NCBI GenBank assembly: GCA_035995165.1
Contig: DASYKU010000097.1
Span: 1-32,453, forward strand
DNA: 32,453 bases
Source: Mycobacteriales bacterium
GTDB lineage: Bacteria > Actinomycetota > Actinomycetes > Mycobacteriales > CADCTP01
Direction: 5' to 3'
Part shown: one piece after another, positions 4,111 through 30,103 of the stretch
Layout of the letters: each line of letters opens with the position of its first letter
How positions within the stretch are numbered: the stretch's first letter is position 1
The notes under the pieces: model-generated
What the model saw: only the letters and a program-made list of their open reading frames with translations
The model's database searches: none
What the model was told of the DNA's origin: nothing
Position numbers and translations under genes: made by a program

Positions 4111-4126
<16 letters not shown>
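2975..4126 (+). CDS. Protein-L-isoaspartate O-methyltransferase-like SAM methyltransferase with C-terminal extension
   Basis: A 383-residue protein. Residues 1-210 match the PIMT (Pcm) fold: N-terminal helices ending VPRHLFLP (31-38), an SSSSQP segment (63-68) in place of the usual substrate-loop motif, SAM-binding motif [12 protein letters not shown] (86-96), the acidic strand end VDIEP, then [10 protein letters not shown]. About 170 extra residues follow, which ordinary Pcm (about 210 residues) lacks. This longer form resembles PIMT-like methyltransferases of actinobacterial RiPP systems (FxLD or ATP-grasp-associated types), which act on aspartate of a modified peptide; that comparison is from memory. 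No precursor peptide or other RiPP enzyme is seen nearby. Isoaspartyl repair or an orphan peptide methyltransferase are both possible. Its 3' end overlaps convergent metH by 16 bases. Confidence 0.8.
3303..3317. repeat. Interrupted palindrome TGTCCACTGTGGACA, copy 1
   Basis: A perfect 6-bp inverted repeat around a 3-base centre, inside the PIMT-like gene (codons for VSTVD). It uses the rarer threonine codon ACT where ACC is normal here. Related copies are at 5355-5369 and 29003-29017, with a weaker one at 12716-12730. Confidence 0.5.
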
Positions 4127-7713
<3,587 letters not shown>

Positions 7714-7804
7714 TGCTGCCTCCGCAGGTTCCGGAGGCGCCCTTCGAACACACGCCGAGATCGAGCGTGGCGGGCTCCCACCCGTCGCAGCGCCTCTCGA
7801 CCTC
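7714..7804 (-). promoter_or_regulatory. S-adenosylhomocysteine (SAH) riboswitch controlling metH
   Basis: Read on the minus strand, the metH leader contains: P1, GAGGTCGAG (7804-7796) pairing with CTCGATCTC (7765-7757); the conserved GGCGCTGCGAC segment (7794-7784); an inner hairpin CGGGT-GGGA-GCCCG (7784-7771); CCACGCTCG next to P1 (compare CCCAGGCUCG of known SAH aptamers); then TTCGAAGGGCGCCTC (7748-7734). The GCGCCTC of that last strand can pair back with GAGGCGC (7797-7791), giving the SAH-type pseudoknot. Expression platform: GCCTCCG (7738-7732) also pairs perfectly with CGGAGGC (7724-7718), hiding the GGAGG ribosome site. Pseudoknot and sequestering stem share GCCTC, so SAH binding should free the site and turn metH on, as known for SAH riboswitches. 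Identified by eye; no covariance search was run. Confidence 0.85.
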
Positions 7805-7810
7805 ACCCCC

Positions 7811-26195: not shown

Positions 26196-26831
26196 CTAGC
26201 GGGTCGCCTGGGCGATCAGGACGGTGGCCTGGTCGGGCTGGACCTCGGCGCCGTAGACCGGGGTGTCCGGCTCCTGCCGCCAGCTCTCGGCCAGCGTGCC
26301 GGTGTCGACGGCGCTGAAGCCGAACTCGTCGATGAAGCCGGTCAGCAGCGCCTTGGCCTCGGCGTCGTCGCCGGCGATCGGAAGCGCGTACCGGTCGGAG
26401 GCCGGTGCGTCCGTACGGCCGCGGTCGCGCAGGTGCTCGAAGTAGATCGTGTTGAACGCCTTGACCACGCGGGCCTCGGGCAGGTGCCGGGCCAGCAGCT
26501 CGGAGGAGGTCGCCGACTTCGAGTCCAGCGCGGCGATCTGACCGTCGCGCTCCGGGTAGTAGTTGTCCAGGTCGATCACGATCTTGCCCGCGAACCACTC
26601 CGGCGGCAGCGACTCGTACGCCTTCAGCGGGATCGCGACCGCGACCACCTCGCCGAACGCCGCGGCGTCGGCCGCGGTCGCCGCGTGCGCGTTGGGGCCG
26701 AGCTCGGCGACCTTGTCGGCCAGCGTCTCCGGGCCGCGGGAGTTGGCCAGGGCCACCTCGTGGCCGGCGCGGGTGAACAGGGTTGCGAGCGAGCCGCCGA
26801 TCATGCCGGCGCCGATGATTCCGATCTTCAT
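26196..26831 (-). CDS. NADPH-dependent F420 reductase-like Rossmann protein
   Basis: A 211-residue oxidoreductase. The dinucleotide motif GAGMIG (7-12) follows MKIGI, and residues NSRGPETL (31-38) would contact the NADPH phosphate. IVIDLDNYYP and VVKAFNTIYFEHL resemble the F420:NADP reductase and 6-phosphogluconate dehydrogenase-like fold. It is last in the minus-strand operon, 22 bases after the acyl carrier protein stop, and so may reduce an ACP-bound or polyamine intermediate; that is inference. ATG 26831 is preceded only by a weak GGCGG site. Function as a generic NAD(P)-binding protein of the NADPH-dependent F420 reductase family is equally possible. Confidence 0.88.
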   Translation of the reverse strand: MKIGIIGAGMIGGSLATLFTRAGHEVALANSRGPETLADKVAELGPNAHAATAADAAAFGEVVAVAIPLKAYESLPPEWFAGKIVIDLDNYYPERDGQIAALDSKSATSSELLARHLPEARVVKAFNTIYFEHLRDRGRTDAPASDRYALPIAGDDAEAKALLTGFIDEFGFSAVDTGTLAESWRQEPDTPVYGAEVQPDQATVLIAQATR

Positions 26832-26853
26832 GCCGCCGCAACCGAGCGACAGG

Positions 26854-27093
26854 TCACCCTGTTCCCGAGTGCGCACCCACGAAGTCGGTCAATGTGCCGA
26901 TCGTGGCCAGTGAGTCCAGATCGAGGTCGAGGTCGGCGACGTCGACGCCGGTCTCGGTCCGGATCGCGGCCAGCAGCCGGACCACGGTGACCGAGTCCAG
27001 CCCGAGCCCCCCGGACAGCAGCGCGGTGCCGGCCGGCAGCGTGGCCACGGCCGGGTCGGCCAGTACCCCGGCCAGGATCTCGGGCACGGTCAC
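26854..27093 (-). CDS. Free-standing acyl carrier protein
   Basis: A 79-residue ACP. The phosphopantetheine attachment site is S34 in GGLGLDSVTVVRLL. Helix III and the acidic patch follow (GVDVADLDLDLDSLATIGTL). The length and sequence resemble the discrete ACPs that partner FkbH-type enzymes. GTG 27093 overlaps the FkbH-like stop (GTGA, 27090-27093) and has GGAGGAG five bases upstream, which fixes the start. As the next gene after an FkbH homologue it probably accepts a three-carbon acyl group made from 1,3-bisphosphoglycerate. Confidence 0.9.
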   Translation of the reverse strand: MTVPEILAGVLADPAVATLPAGTALLSGGLGLDSVTVVRLLAAIRTETGVDVADLDLDLDSLATIGTLTDFVGAHSGTG

Positions 27094-28097
27094 AGCCGCT
27101 CCTCCACGTCGACCCAGCCGGGGTACTCGGGCGCGGCGGCCAGGTCGCGGCCGTAGACGGCGGCATCGTCCGACGCCCGGGACGAGGCGGTGAACCCGGC
27201 CTGCTTGAGCCCGAGCCGGACCGGGACGTTCCGCTCGGTCAGCCGGCACGGGACGAGCAACCGGGCGCCGCCGCGGGACCGCGCCAGCCGGCCCAGCCCG
27301 GTCAGCAGCAGCGGCACCCCGCCGCGACCCCCGGCCCGGCAGGACACCGCCACCAGGCCGGCCGTCCACACCGGACCGTCCGAAGTAGACAGCACACCGG
27401 CCCCGACCAGCCCGTCGTCGCCGAACCGGTCGGCCAGCTCCAGCACGACCGTCGGGCCGGCCGGCAGCTCGATCCCGGTCGAGTTGTACTGGGTGGTCCG
27501 CTGGGCGAGCTCCACCAGCCGGTCCCGGTCGTCCGCGGCCGCGAGCCGGACCGTCGCCCGCAACCCACACCAGCCCAGGAAGTCCTCGTCCGACCCGGCG
27601 AACGCCGTACGGGCCTCCCGCCGTCGTTCCCGCTGCCGGTAACTGTCCAACCGGGACAGTGCCGCCGCGGTCACCGGCCCGGCCCCGAGCTCCGGCCAGT
27701 CCAGCGCGGCGGCGACCTCGTCCGGCGCCAGCACGGTCACCGACGGCAGCGTCCGCTCGACGTCCGCCCGCTCGAACGGGTCGTCGTCGACGAAGGCCAG
27801 CGTGTCCAGGCCGACGTCCAGCTCGTCGGCGATCCGGCGCAGCGCGTCGGCCTTGCGGCCCCAGCCGTACTGCGGGGCGACGAAACGGCCGGCCAGCATG
27901 GACTTCTCCACCAGCACGCCGATCTCGGACGGGTTGCGGCTGGCGACGCTGACCAGGATCCCGCGCCCGGCGAGGGTGTCCAGCGTCGTCACGGCGGCCG
28001 GATAGGGCGACGGCAGCTCGTCGGACTCCAGCGCGATCCCGGGCCAGAGCGTCCCGTCCAGGTCCCAGACGACCACCTTGACCGGCGGACGGCTCAC
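27090..28097 (-). CDS. FkbH-like HAD-IIIC protein (glyceryl-ACP forming type)
   Basis: A 335-residue protein. The N-terminal HAD phosphatase-like domain has motif I VVWDLDGTLW with D12 and D14, motif II S53 in VASRNPSE, K82 in WGRKADAL and the acidic motif FVDDDPFE (D104-D106). A GNAT-like C-terminal domain spans about 160-335. FkbH-family enzymes take 1,3-bisphosphoglycerate, dephosphorylate it and load glycerate onto an ACP, giving glyceryl-ACP for methoxymalonate, tetronate and other natural products. The free ACP immediately downstream is the expected partner. GTG 28097 overlaps the upstream GNAT stop, so it is translationally coupled on both sides. The acyl group loaded here is inferred. 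Confidence 0.9.
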   Translation of the reverse strand: MSRPPVKVVVWDLDGTLWPGIALESDELPSPYPAAVTTLDTLAGRGILVSVASRNPSEIGVLVEKSMLAGRFVAPQYGWGRKADALRRIADELDVGLDTLAFVDDDPFERADVERTLPSVTVLAPDEVAAALDWPELGAGPVTAAALSRLDSYRQRERRREARTAFAGSDEDFLGWCGLRATVRLAAADDRDRLVELAQRTTQYNSTGIELPAGPTVVLELADRFGDDGLVGAGVLSTSDGPVWTAGLVAVSCRAGGRGGVPLLLTGLGRLARSRGGARLLVPCRLTERNVPVRLGLKQAGFTASSRASDDAAVYGRDLAAAPEYPGWVDVEERL

Positions 28098-28546
28098 AAT
28101 GCCTTCCGCATCGACAGGTGCTCGGCGGCGAAGCCGAGTTTCGCGTACACCGCGCGCATGTTGACGTTGCGCATGTGGACCTTGCCCACGACCTCGGACA
28201 CGCCGCGGTCCTTGGCCGCCGCCAGCGCGGCGTCCAGCAGCAGCTCCGCGACCGCACTGCGGCCCGGGACGTCGCTGGTCGCCAGCGACCGGAGGTTGCC
28301 GTAGCGGTCGCCGGTCAGCGAGTTCGTCCGGCCGGACAGCCAGACCCAGCCGACGACCGCGCCGTCCCGGTCCGCGACCAGGGTGAGCTCGTCGGCCTTG
28401 CCGAGCGAGCCGGTGATCCGCTTGCGGTGCAGCTCGGGATCGGTGATCGCCTCGTCGCCGAAGGAGATCCGGGCGATCTCGATCTCGTACGCGATGAGCG
28501 CGTCGAGATCCGCCGCGACCGCGGACCGGACGAGATCAGCGGACAC
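28094..28546 (-). CDS. GNAT-family N-acyltransferase in the polyamine/FkbH operon
   Basis: A 150-residue single-domain GNAT. It has the amino-terminal acceptor region VRSAVAADLDALIAYEIEIA, the central strand LTLVADRDGAVVGWVWL, the acyl-CoA loop SDVPGRSAVAELLLDAAL (91-108) and the closing NVNMRAVYAKLGF (127-139). GTG 28546 has GAAGGAG 7 bases upstream and overlaps the BpsA gene by 11 bases; its stop overlaps the FkbH-like start. Its position between a polyamine synthase and an acyl-ACP module suggests it acylates the polyamine, using acyl-CoA or the adjacent acyl-ACP. The donor and acceptor are not determined by sequence. Confidence 0.88.
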   Translation of the reverse strand: MSADLVRSAVAADLDALIAYEIEIARISFGDEAITDPELHRKRITGSLGKADELTLVADRDGAVVGWVWLSGRTNSLTGDRYGNLRSLATSDVPGRSAVAELLLDAALAAAKDRGVSEVVGKVHMRNVNMRAVYAKLGFAAEHLSMRKAL

Positions 28547-29684
28547 GGGACGGCTCCTTCGTCACCCGGGGCCGGAACGTCCGCCCGCCGCAGCGTGGGC
28601 AGCCGGCCTGCTTGAGCTCCCCGACGTTGCGCCAGCGCCGCCCCTCGCCGACGGTCTGCCCGGTGCTGCAGGTGGCGCAGACGTACCGGCGGCGGTTGCG
28701 GTCGGTGCCGGTGTAGACGGCGCCGGGCTCCACCGAGACCTCCCCGGCCGAGACCAGGTGCCAGAACGCGCTGGTGCCGCCGAGCACGCCCGCCCCGACG
28801 TAGTCGTTGAAGCCCGGCAGCATCGCGCGGACCGCCAGCCCGAGCCGGGCGAGCACCTGCTGCAGCGCGACCGTCTCGGCCGGCCGCCGGACGCCGAGGG
28901 ACAGGAACACCTCGCCCCCGGCGCCGGGCTTCAGCGCGCTCGCGGCCCGGGACAGGAACAGCTCCGCGCCGGCCACCGTGTACGGCGGGTCGGTCTGCAC
29001 GGTGTCCATTGTGGACAACAGCGACGCCGGCAGCGGGTCGGTCAGGTCGTGCTCGACCACCTCGGCCGGGAACGGCGCGTCCGCCAGCCGGGAGCGCAGG
29101 AACGCGACCAGCTCGGGATCGAGCTCGAGGACCGTCACCGAGGCCGGACCGCCGCCGTGCTGCCGGGCGAACTCGGCCAGCGCCAGCGAGACCAGGTCGT
29201 CGTCGCCGAGGATCAGCACGTGCCGGCCGGCCAGCGCGCCGGCGTCGTGCATGGCCAGCACCCGGCGGGTCTTGGTCGCCGGCGTGCAGTGGGTCTGGTC
29301 GAGCTCGACCCGGACCGGCGGCATCGTCGCGGCCGGGTCCTCCAGCGCGGCGGTCAGCTCCGGGGCGGCCGAGTCGAGCACGCCGCGGCCGGCGCAGGTC
29401 GGGCAGCGGCCACTGACGTCGGCTCCGGGGTCGAAGGCGGCCCGGCCCGGATCGGTGAGCCGGGCCGGGCGGTCGGCGGTGAGCACGCCCCGGGTCCGCA
29501 GCTCGCCGCAGATCGCGGCCACCACGGGCAACGGCAGCGCGGTCGCCCGGCCGACCGCCCGGGTCGACCCGGCACCGCGGGCGATCTCCCGCACCACGGC
29601 CCGCACGCCCGGCGGGCCCTCGGCCAGCCCGACGGCGGCGGCGACCTCGGCCGCGACGACCTCCGGGTCGAGTACGACGCTCAC
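28536..29684 (-). CDS. bpsA: Branched-chain polyamine synthase (N4-bis(aminopropyl)spermidine synthase family)
   Basis: A 382-residue aminopropyltransferase. It uses decarboxylated SAM, presumably from the preceding AdoMet decarboxylase, to add aminopropyl groups to a polyamine nitrogen. Layout: winged helix about 26-85; a CPTC knuckle (94-97) before GRGVLDS; VELDQTHCT (126-134); catalytic-type GDDD (160-163) in HVLILGDDDLVSLALAEFA; acidic strand end VLELDPEL; and TDPPYT (231-236). After about 330 comes a zinc-ribbon-like pair, CATC (336-339) and CPRC (362-365), that I do not associate with thermophile BpsA. GTG 29684 overlaps the upstream stop (GTGA), which fixes the start. BpsA was described from thermophiles; nothing here indicates a thermophile. 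Confidence 0.92.
   Translation of the reverse strand: MSVVLDPEVVAAEVAAAVGLAEGPPGVRAVVREIARGAGSTRAVGRATALPLPVVAAICGELRTRGVLTADRPARLTDPGRAAFDPGADVSGRCPTCAGRGVLDSAAPELTAALEDPAATMPPVRVELDQTHCTPATKTRRVLAMHDAGALAGRHVLILGDDDLVSLALAEFARQHGGGPASVTVLELDPELVAFLRSRLADAPFPAEVVEHDLTDPLPASLLSTMDTVQTDPPYTVAGAELFLSRAASALKPGAGGEVFLSLGVRRPAETVALQQVLARLGLAVRAMLPGFNDYVGAGVLGGTSAFWHLVSAGEVSVEPGAVYTGTDRNRRRYVCATCSTGQTVGEGRRWRNVGELKQAGCPRCGGRTFRPRVTKEPSRVR
29003..29017. repeat. Interrupted palindrome TGTCCATTGTGGACA, copy 3
   Basis: A perfect 6-bp inverted repeat around TTG, inside bpsA. On the coding strand the codons are TTG TCC ACA ATG GAC ACC, with two choices (TTG, ACA) that are rare in this gene. Confidence 0.5.
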
Positions 29685-30103
29685 CGGGACGTGGGCAGCC
29701 CGCGGTCGAGGCGCTGGACGGTCACCCGCTCCAGCCCGAGCCGCGCGACCAGCTCGTCGATCACGGCTTGCCCGTCGATCGCGCCGCAGCTGAACAGGTC
29801 GACGGCGACCAGGTGCTCCTCCGGCCAGGTGTGCACCGACAGGTGCGACTCCGCCAGCACGAGCACCAGCGTCACGGCGCCGTTGGGGAACACGACCGCG
29901 GTCTCGTCCAGCACGTGCCCCCGGCCGGCCGCGACGGCGGCCCGGGCGGCGGCGGCGATGCCCTCGGGGTCGGTGGTCACGCCCGCGTCGCCGACCGCGC
30001 CGTCGACCGCGTAGAGCACCTTGGGGGTGAACGCCTCCAGCGGCCGCAGGTCGCTCAGCGGCCGCTGCGCACGCTGCACCCGCAGCGACGTCCCGGAGTC
30101 CAC
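29681..30103 (-). CDS. speD: S-adenosylmethionine decarboxylase proenzyme
   Basis: A 140-residue prokaryotic-type AdoMet decarboxylase. It cleaves itself between E85 and S86 in LVLAESHLSVHTWPEE, turning S86 into the pyruvoyl cofactor. H91 and C106 (VDLFSCG) complete the active site. The product, decarboxylated SAM, is the aminopropyl donor for BpsA, whose GTG overlaps this stop. GTG 30103 gives the expected start and has no Shine-Dalgarno sequence, but TACCCT lies 6 bases upstream, which suggests leaderless transcription. It is the first gene of the operon running down to 26196. Confidence 0.95.
   Translation of the reverse strand: MDSGTSLRVQRAQRPLSDLRPLEAFTPKVLYAVDGAVGDAGVTTDPEGIAAAARAAVAAGRGHVLDETAVVFPNGAVTLVLVLAESHLSVHTWPEEHLVAVDLFSCGAIDGQAVIDELVARLGLERVTVQRLDRGLPTSR

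Follow-up and report, generated by a model that had tools for sequence, protein, structure and literature searches.

BpsA, known from archaeal and Thermus synthesis of branched-chain polyamines, has a GDDD motif that is said to be indispensable for binding decarboxylated S-adenosylmethionine (dcSAM), and the Thermococcus enzyme has an acidic C-terminal cluster that is said to carry the aminopropyl group (from the available parts of PMC12979288). Formation of glyceryl-acyl carrier protein (glyceryl-ACP) has been proposed for the protein pairs Mad7/Mad8 and Mad14/Mad12 (in the portion of PMC7489565 consulted). Here we describe a locus that contains genes of both kinds. The window, meaning the whole 32,453-nucleotide stretch analyzed, is one entire contig (DASYKU010000097.1) from a Mycobacteriales bacterium (assembly GCA_035995165.1, 5.37 Mb in 162 contigs). 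On its reverse strand, at positions 26196 to 30103, are genes for SpeD, a BpsA-type aminopropyltransferase, a GNAT-fold acyltransferase, FkbH, a free ACP, and a Rossmann reductase. Comparison of sequences supports well that the first five are a conserved cassette, and coupling of aminopropyl transfer with carrier-bound glycerate, the core of the original prediction, is the best reading of it.

In 24 genomes, the genes for BpsA, GNAT, FkbH, and ACP follow one another in that sequence on a single strand; the genomes represent Paenibacillus (Paenibacillaceae) and six or more actinobacterial families. This count includes close relatives (G730 and G731, and a Streptomyces-like set), bpsA is cut by a contig end in two of the genomes (L056 and L058), and loci L057 and L058, which come from one metagenome-assembled genome (MAG; JASHPR01), are counted once. 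The carriers include Allokutzneria, Goodfellowiella, Streptosporangiaceae and Nocardiopsaceae MAGs, Candidatus Stackebrandtia, a Streptomyces-like genus, and Paenibacillus. We take the Streptomyces-like genus to be Streptomyces because chaplin and tyrosinase genes adjoin the cassette in one of its genomes (G314). Most actinobacterial carriers also have speD near the cassette. The neighborhood comparison shows that the adjacency is not confined to one strain, and the recurrence of the order across families and two phyla rules out a chance or strain-specific arrangement.

The GNAT alignment includes at least 14 loci in named genomes. Among the matches listed, bpsA is upstream on the same strand in 14 of 14 loci, where it overlaps the GNAT gene, is fused to it, or lies within ~80 bp (~760 bp at L067), and fkbH follows in 11 of the 14. 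The three without fkbH are L057 and L067, where the contig ends in or just past the GNAT gene, and P. chitinolyticus (L068). This GNAT was thus never seen apart from BpsA, and L068 is the only locus with enough contig where FkbH is missing. Six of 394 genomes of the class have a GNAT match at E ≤ 1e-15, and the five besides the window's own all have BpsA, FkbH, ACP, and SpeD nearby. The cassette type is rare: prevalences, which are lower bounds at thresholds of our choice (1e-60 and 1e-50), are at least 6 of 150 genomes of the Streptomyces-like genus, at least 4 of 396 genomes of the phylum (the window's own among them), and at least 2 of 299 genomes of the Paenibacillus phylum, the last two counts including ribbon-type BpsA (see below) without the cassette. 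Gene starts at loci other than the window were picked by a script. No further neighboring gene is common to actinobacterial loci in general across families, and thiolase and transporter genes beside some loci were set aside as not general. Plasmid carriage was rejected: a tblastn search of PLSDB with BpsA returned one remote match (Nonomuraea, 34%), and FkbH matched 115 records, all below 60% identity, judged by identity alone.

That the genes form one unit, as originally predicted, is borne out by the conserved order, by two kinds of gene fusion, and by a BpsA tree whose main splits inside Actinobacteria match those of the FkbH tree. A single frame without interruption encodes both BpsA and GNAT in nine genomes, those of Goodfellowiella and G371 and seven that are Streptomyces-like (nine loci in all: L065, L069–L073, and L129–L131). 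In the fused protein of L070, the one for which domains are shown, Pfam finds both the BpsA and GNAT domains. In Candidatus Stackebrandtia faecavium (L061), ACP and SpeD are a single 200 amino acid protein with both Pfam domains. Fusions at two junctions therefore tie together four of the five genes, and FkbH is tied to the cassette by gene order and phylogeny, not by fusion. The actinobacterial cassette FkbHs (18 rows, the window protein included) form one clade with 100/98 support, apart from 16 other sampled FkbH domains, and five Paenibacillus cassette FkbHs form a separate clade. The FkbH tree is compatible with a single origin of the two sets and does not establish one.

The bpsA gene (28536..29684, minus strand) encodes 382 amino acids and matches PF01861 (BpsA_C) at 113.3 bits (cut-off 27). 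The protein retains GDDD and DPPYT, and GDDD is present in every cassette BpsA that spans the site. Tk-BpsA and Tth-BpsA are the solved structures nearest to its predicted model (pLDDT 82, E 1.8e-20). In place of the acidic C-terminal cluster of Thermococcus BpsA, the C terminus is a four-cysteine ribbon (residues 336–365; 28590..28679, minus strand), which probably binds zinc. Cysteines 336, 339, 362, and 365 are shared without exception by the 13 aligned BpsAs of the ribbon type, and all cassette BpsAs that could be checked are of this type and keep GDDD. None of the 27 ordinary PF01861 proteins taken from the order has the ribbon. We rejected the idea that any PF01861 protein implies a cassette: among the best 30 loci of the order, 27 lack GDDD and the ribbon, and none of these has an FkbH match within ~1.5 kb on either side. 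The Pfam name alone is thus no proof of BpsA activity; the GDDD motif speaks for such activity in the cassette proteins. The order has a second, long (~480–550 amino acids) PF01861 family with DPPYT and without GDDD or ribbon (L003–L030 except L008).

The speD gene (29681..30103, minus strand) encodes a 140 amino acid member of the AdoMet decarboxylase family (PF02675, 82.2 bits, cut-off 25), which falls 0.45 bits short of the NCBIfam equivalog cut-off (TIGR03330, 75.2 vs 75.65). The processing block SH..HTWPE is kept in all 14 carriers, and the later cysteine of SpeD, which is catalytic, is kept in the window protein. This gene is the sole PF02675 match in the window's genome. Exactly one SpeD match was found in 12 of the 16 actinobacterial carriers searched; in three Allokutzneria-type genomes (G110, G653, and G654) a further SpeD adjoins a PF01564 gene, and none was detected in one MAG (G659). 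The single SpeD is in or beside the cassette in 11 of those 12 carriers (the G660 copy lies on the L057 contig, which belongs to that MAG), and the Goodfellowiella copy (G656) apparently lies ~9 kb downstream of the cassette on its contig. In many carriers dcSAM therefore seems to be dedicated to the cassette pathway.

Searches with PF17284 (the spermidine synthase N-terminal domain, no match) and PF01564 (weak matches of 25.5 and 21.8 bits, cut-off 22.9) revealed no clear spermidine synthase in the genome of the window, although in a 162-contig assembly a missing gene could reflect a gap. PF17284 occurs in 3 of 20 genomes, all Paenibacillus. Clear PF01564 matches are present in G652 (8e-38), G371 (6e-33), G008 (1e-31), and four Streptomyces-like genomes (5e-19 to 2e-24). 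The original prediction named a branched polyamine. Neither a branched nor a spermidine-based product is shown, given the lack of a clear spermidine synthase in this genome and a putative zinc ribbon where Thermococcus BpsA has its acidic cluster; against taking branching as proven there are also the ribbon-type BpsAs that stand apart from the rest of the cassette (see below).

A HAD nucleophile motif together with SCRxxGRG is characteristic of FkbH. The fkbH gene (27090..28097, minus strand) encodes a 335 amino acid protein of the HAD-IIIC glyceryl-loading enzyme family, with a TIGR01686 score of 152.3 bits (cut-off 146.65), and all 11 cassette FkbHs in the alignment are detected by this model with E ≤ 1e-5. 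WDxDxT is kept in 18 of 18 proteins and SCRxxGRG in 17 of 17 (those of at least 300 amino acids). The free ACP (26854..27093, minus strand, 79 amino acids) matches PF00550 (PP-binding; 30.9 bits, cut-off 20.8) and has its carrier serine in GLGLDS. The serine is visible in 17 of 17 aligned sequences; a stricter script pattern finds it in 16, missing L069. We infer that FkbH transfers a glyceryl group from 1,3-bisphosphoglycerate to the ACP.

We propose the following pathway. SpeD would decarboxylate S-adenosylmethionine to dcSAM, from which the BpsA-type enzyme would move an aminopropyl group to an amine. FkbH would take glycerate from 1,3-bisphosphoglycerate and load it onto the free ACP, and the GNAT would use the charged ACP as donor, rather than acetyl-coenzyme A (CoA), and pass the glyceryl group on to the aminopropylated amine. 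This would yield an N-glyceroyl (2,3-dihydroxypropanoyl) polyamine, either as a small metabolite or, in some Paenibacillus, perhaps as a building block for a neighboring nonribosomal peptide synthetase–polyketide synthase (NRPS-PKS). Gene set, order, fusions, motifs, and shared ancestry can be read from the sequences themselves. The dcSAM, aminopropyl transfer, and glyceryl-ACP steps are predicted from the enzyme families, and glyceryl-ACP as GNAT donor and the amide product are suggested by weaker hints. The joining of glyceryl and amine is assigned to the GNAT because it is fused to BpsA, has a DpA-like fold, and is missing the CoA loop, and because the loci share no other gene that could unload the ACP. 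We consider the chances about even that the five-gene cassette makes an N-glyceroyl polyamine through SpeD, BpsA, FkbH–ACP, and GNAT. More tentatively, the cassette could represent ACP-dependent polyamine conjugation with a GNAT that has abandoned CoA, an apparently dedicated dcSAM supply, and, in some hosts, no clear spermidine synthase. Nothing that we found speaks for the lipid product that the original prediction also allowed.

The fold of the GNAT and its missing loop, described here, speak for this pathway; several observations on the GNAT, BpsA, SpeD, and the integrity of the cassette, given here and in the next two paragraphs, weigh against it. In most GNATs a [QR]xxGx[GA] loop holds the CoA pyrophosphate. 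The cassette GNAT gene (28094..28546, minus strand) encodes 150 amino acids and passes the Acetyltransf_1 cut-off (PF00583, 37.5 vs 20.7 bits). The nearest fold to its model (pLDDT 92) is the polyamine acetyltransferase DpA (E 3.7e-9, TM 0.78, 22% identity), with hundreds of other GNATs following closely. The loop is in 0 of 19 complete cassette GNATs and in six of seven PDB relatives with alignments shown (read by eye); 2eui appears to lack it too, so the missing loop is a hint, no more, that the donor may be glyceryl-ACP. The family match and the DpA fold would also suit an ordinary CoA-dependent enzyme that acetylates the aminopropylated amine. The FkbH–ACP glycerate would then be transferred by a different enzyme or go into a product of its own. 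T. kodakarensis is reported to have an acetylated branched-chain polyamine (PMC12979288, as far as available). We think this alternative fairly unlikely in view of the loop counts, the constant company of BpsA and near-constant company of FkbH described above, and the lack of any other gene common to the loci in general that could unload the ACP.

The glyceroylation pathway also depends on the two enzymes of aminopropyl transfer. Over its full length the BpsA model aligns to the solved BpsAs with a TM of only ~0.5 and an rmsd of ~16. The later cysteine of SpeD is a tyrosine in 7 of 14 carriers (L048, L062, L063, and L069–L072) and in the SpeD of a solo SpeD–BpsA pair (L128), so these SpeDs may not be standard AdoMet decarboxylases. 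Actinomycetota are reported to have SpeD relatives that decarboxylate ornithine or arginine (in the part of PMC10407285 consulted). Such a neofunctionalized SpeD could supply the amine, next to a BpsA that is not an aminopropyl transferase, and the score just under the equivalog cut-off and the lack of a clear spermidine synthase in the window's genome would agree with this. It is nevertheless quite improbable, as BpsA keeps the GDDD described as indispensable for dcSAM binding, the cassette-linked SpeD is the only one able to supply dcSAM in 12 carriers, and the window SpeD retains its cysteine.

The cassette is not always intact. In P. chitinolyticus (L068) fkbH is missing behind a truncated GNAT gene. 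Ribbon-type BpsA occurs in 14 of 100 Paenibacillus genomes, of which five have the cassette (G655, G668, G722, G730, and G731); the other nine have no GNAT, FkbH, or ACP match in the stretch read around BpsA, which in G664 lies 1.3 kb from a contig end and in G721 is a fragment. G1026 encodes SpeD and BpsA alone, with a 4-bp overlap, and the next gene is of a different type and convergent. The pair is thus separable from the remainder, and GNAT–FkbH–ACP may have been added to SpeD–BpsA or lost from it. Two unrelated modules that lie side by side by chance would also produce such separable halves. This explanation is hardly credible for an order kept in 24 genomes of two phyla, and the fusions of BpsA to GNAT (nine genomes) and of ACP to SpeD (one) already refute its general form. 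At four solo loci (Paenibacillus L109, L110, L112, and L115) ribbon-type bpsA has another GNAT-like gene on its upstream side and a topoisomerase-like gene on its downstream side. This neighborhood is conserved, with the gene kinds read by eye. Two Paenibacillus genomes have a broken or fragmentary ribbon-type bpsA (L117 9298-10327 and L118 9878-10463).

In P. solani (G655), G730, and G731 the cassette directly follows genes of one NRPS-PKS cluster. The last NRPS-PKS gene of G655 encodes ketosynthase, acyltransferase, condensation, and FkbH domains plus two carrier domains, and upstream are genes for FkbH, ACP, acyl-CoA dehydrogenase, 3-hydroxyacyl-CoA dehydrogenase, a thioesterase, and a beta-lactamase-family protein. 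In this genome the cassette product may be a building block for the neighboring NRPS-PKS. The position behind this cluster in the three genomes, and in G655 the adjoining condensation-FkbH protein and the FkbH, ACP, and dehydrogenases upstream, could even mean that the cassette is generally a supply module that delivers a glyceryl or polyamine building block to an NRPS-PKS nearby or elsewhere in the genome. We regard this as distinctly unlikely: the flanks read of P. tyrfis (L066), G668, and G722 contain no frame of NRPS-PKS size, and the actinobacterial families have no further neighbor generally in common. An NRPS-PKS cluster that ends in a condensation-FkbH protein directly precedes the cassette at L101, L102, and L120 (G655) and at L103, L104, and L122 (G731), and genes for FkbH, ACP, two families of dehydrogenase, and a beta-lactamase-family protein are upstream. 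The G655/G731 cluster resembles zwittermicin-type clusters.

The six genes of the window, with their coordinates, strand, and junctions, are exactly as first reported. There are three GTGA overlaps and an 11-bp overlap of bpsA and the GNAT gene (28536-28546), so that the first five genes are all joined through 4- or 11-bp overlaps, and a 22-bp gap (26832-26853) separates the ACP gene from that of the reductase. The six genes stand in identical order in a genus mate (G008). The dN/dS values between the two genomes range from 0.15 (GNAT) to 0.56 (reductase), which suggests purifying selection on all six genes, strongest on the GNAT. The last gene (26196..26831, minus strand) encodes a 211 amino acid F420/NADP-reductase-like Rossmann protein (PF03807, F420_oxidored, 71.9 bits, cut-off 21.6) that scores far below the npdG cut-off (TIGR01915, 42.9 vs 149.8). 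The window and G008 (L047/L055) were the only ones with a match among the loci searched with the reductase, which did not include Paenibacillus loci L101–L122 and the late loci L126–L131. We therefore excluded the reductase as a core gene. Its originally predicted membership of the unit holds only in this genus, as an extension of a five-gene core. Convergent with the end of the operon and 1 bp off is a SAM hydroxide adenosyltransferase family gene (PF01887, PF20257; 25340-26194, plus strand). This gene and its upstream thiamine-binding-protein neighbor are kept in G008, ~2 kb from the operon. The window also encodes a 1231 amino acid cobalamin-dependent methionine synthase (4111-7806, minus strand).

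Each of the enzyme families is already known, and the combination in the cassette is apparently undescribed in the open-access literature. There we found no description of the gene set, of a ribbon-type BpsA tied to a carrier protein, or of the fusions, and the statement in the original prediction that no described pathway has this gene set stands to that extent. The cassette links dcSAM aminopropyl chemistry to glyceryl-ACP chemistry, which we did not find coupled in the literature searched. The occurrence in two phyla, together with the gene fusions, suggests that the product is important for the hosts. The cassette is a compact test case for whether a GNAT can use glyceryl-ACP, and for BpsA-type enzymes outside the thermophiles from which they were described. 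It also points to a possible class of metabolites in streptomycete-like bacteria and paenibacilli.

The cassette has the BpsA fold, the GDDD motif, and SpeD as dcSAM source in common with archaeal and Thermus branched-chain polyamine synthesis (parts of PMC12979288). It differs from that system in the linkage to FkbH–ACP–GNAT and, in the window's genome, in the lack of a clear spermidine synthase, and its BpsA differs from Tk-BpsA in the C-terminal cysteine ribbon and in DPPYT instead of DPPET. DpA (PDB 8a9n/8a9o; PMC10267138, seen in part) has the solved fold nearest to the cassette GNAT, which differs in the low identity already given, the absent CoA loop, and the neighboring acyl-ACP system. 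FkbH and an ACP are also common to methoxymalonyl-ACP operons of the FK520 type, and an FkbH-like enzyme with a free ACP to tetronate glycerate modules such as Mad7/Mad8 (both in the consulted portion of PMC7489565). Neither the six-gene unit nor 20 further window proteins scanned include a FabH-like synthase, the two dehydrogenases, or the O-methyltransferase; two of the 20, both outside the unit, match general methyltransferase models. The cassette is thus without the two dehydrogenases and O-methyltransferase of the FK520 type, a partial set of which is present elsewhere in the P. solani cluster. Compared with the tetronate modules, it has no recognized FabH-like tetronate synthase, its actinobacterial FkbHs form a clade of their own, and the partners of FkbH and ACP are SpeD, BpsA, and a GNAT.

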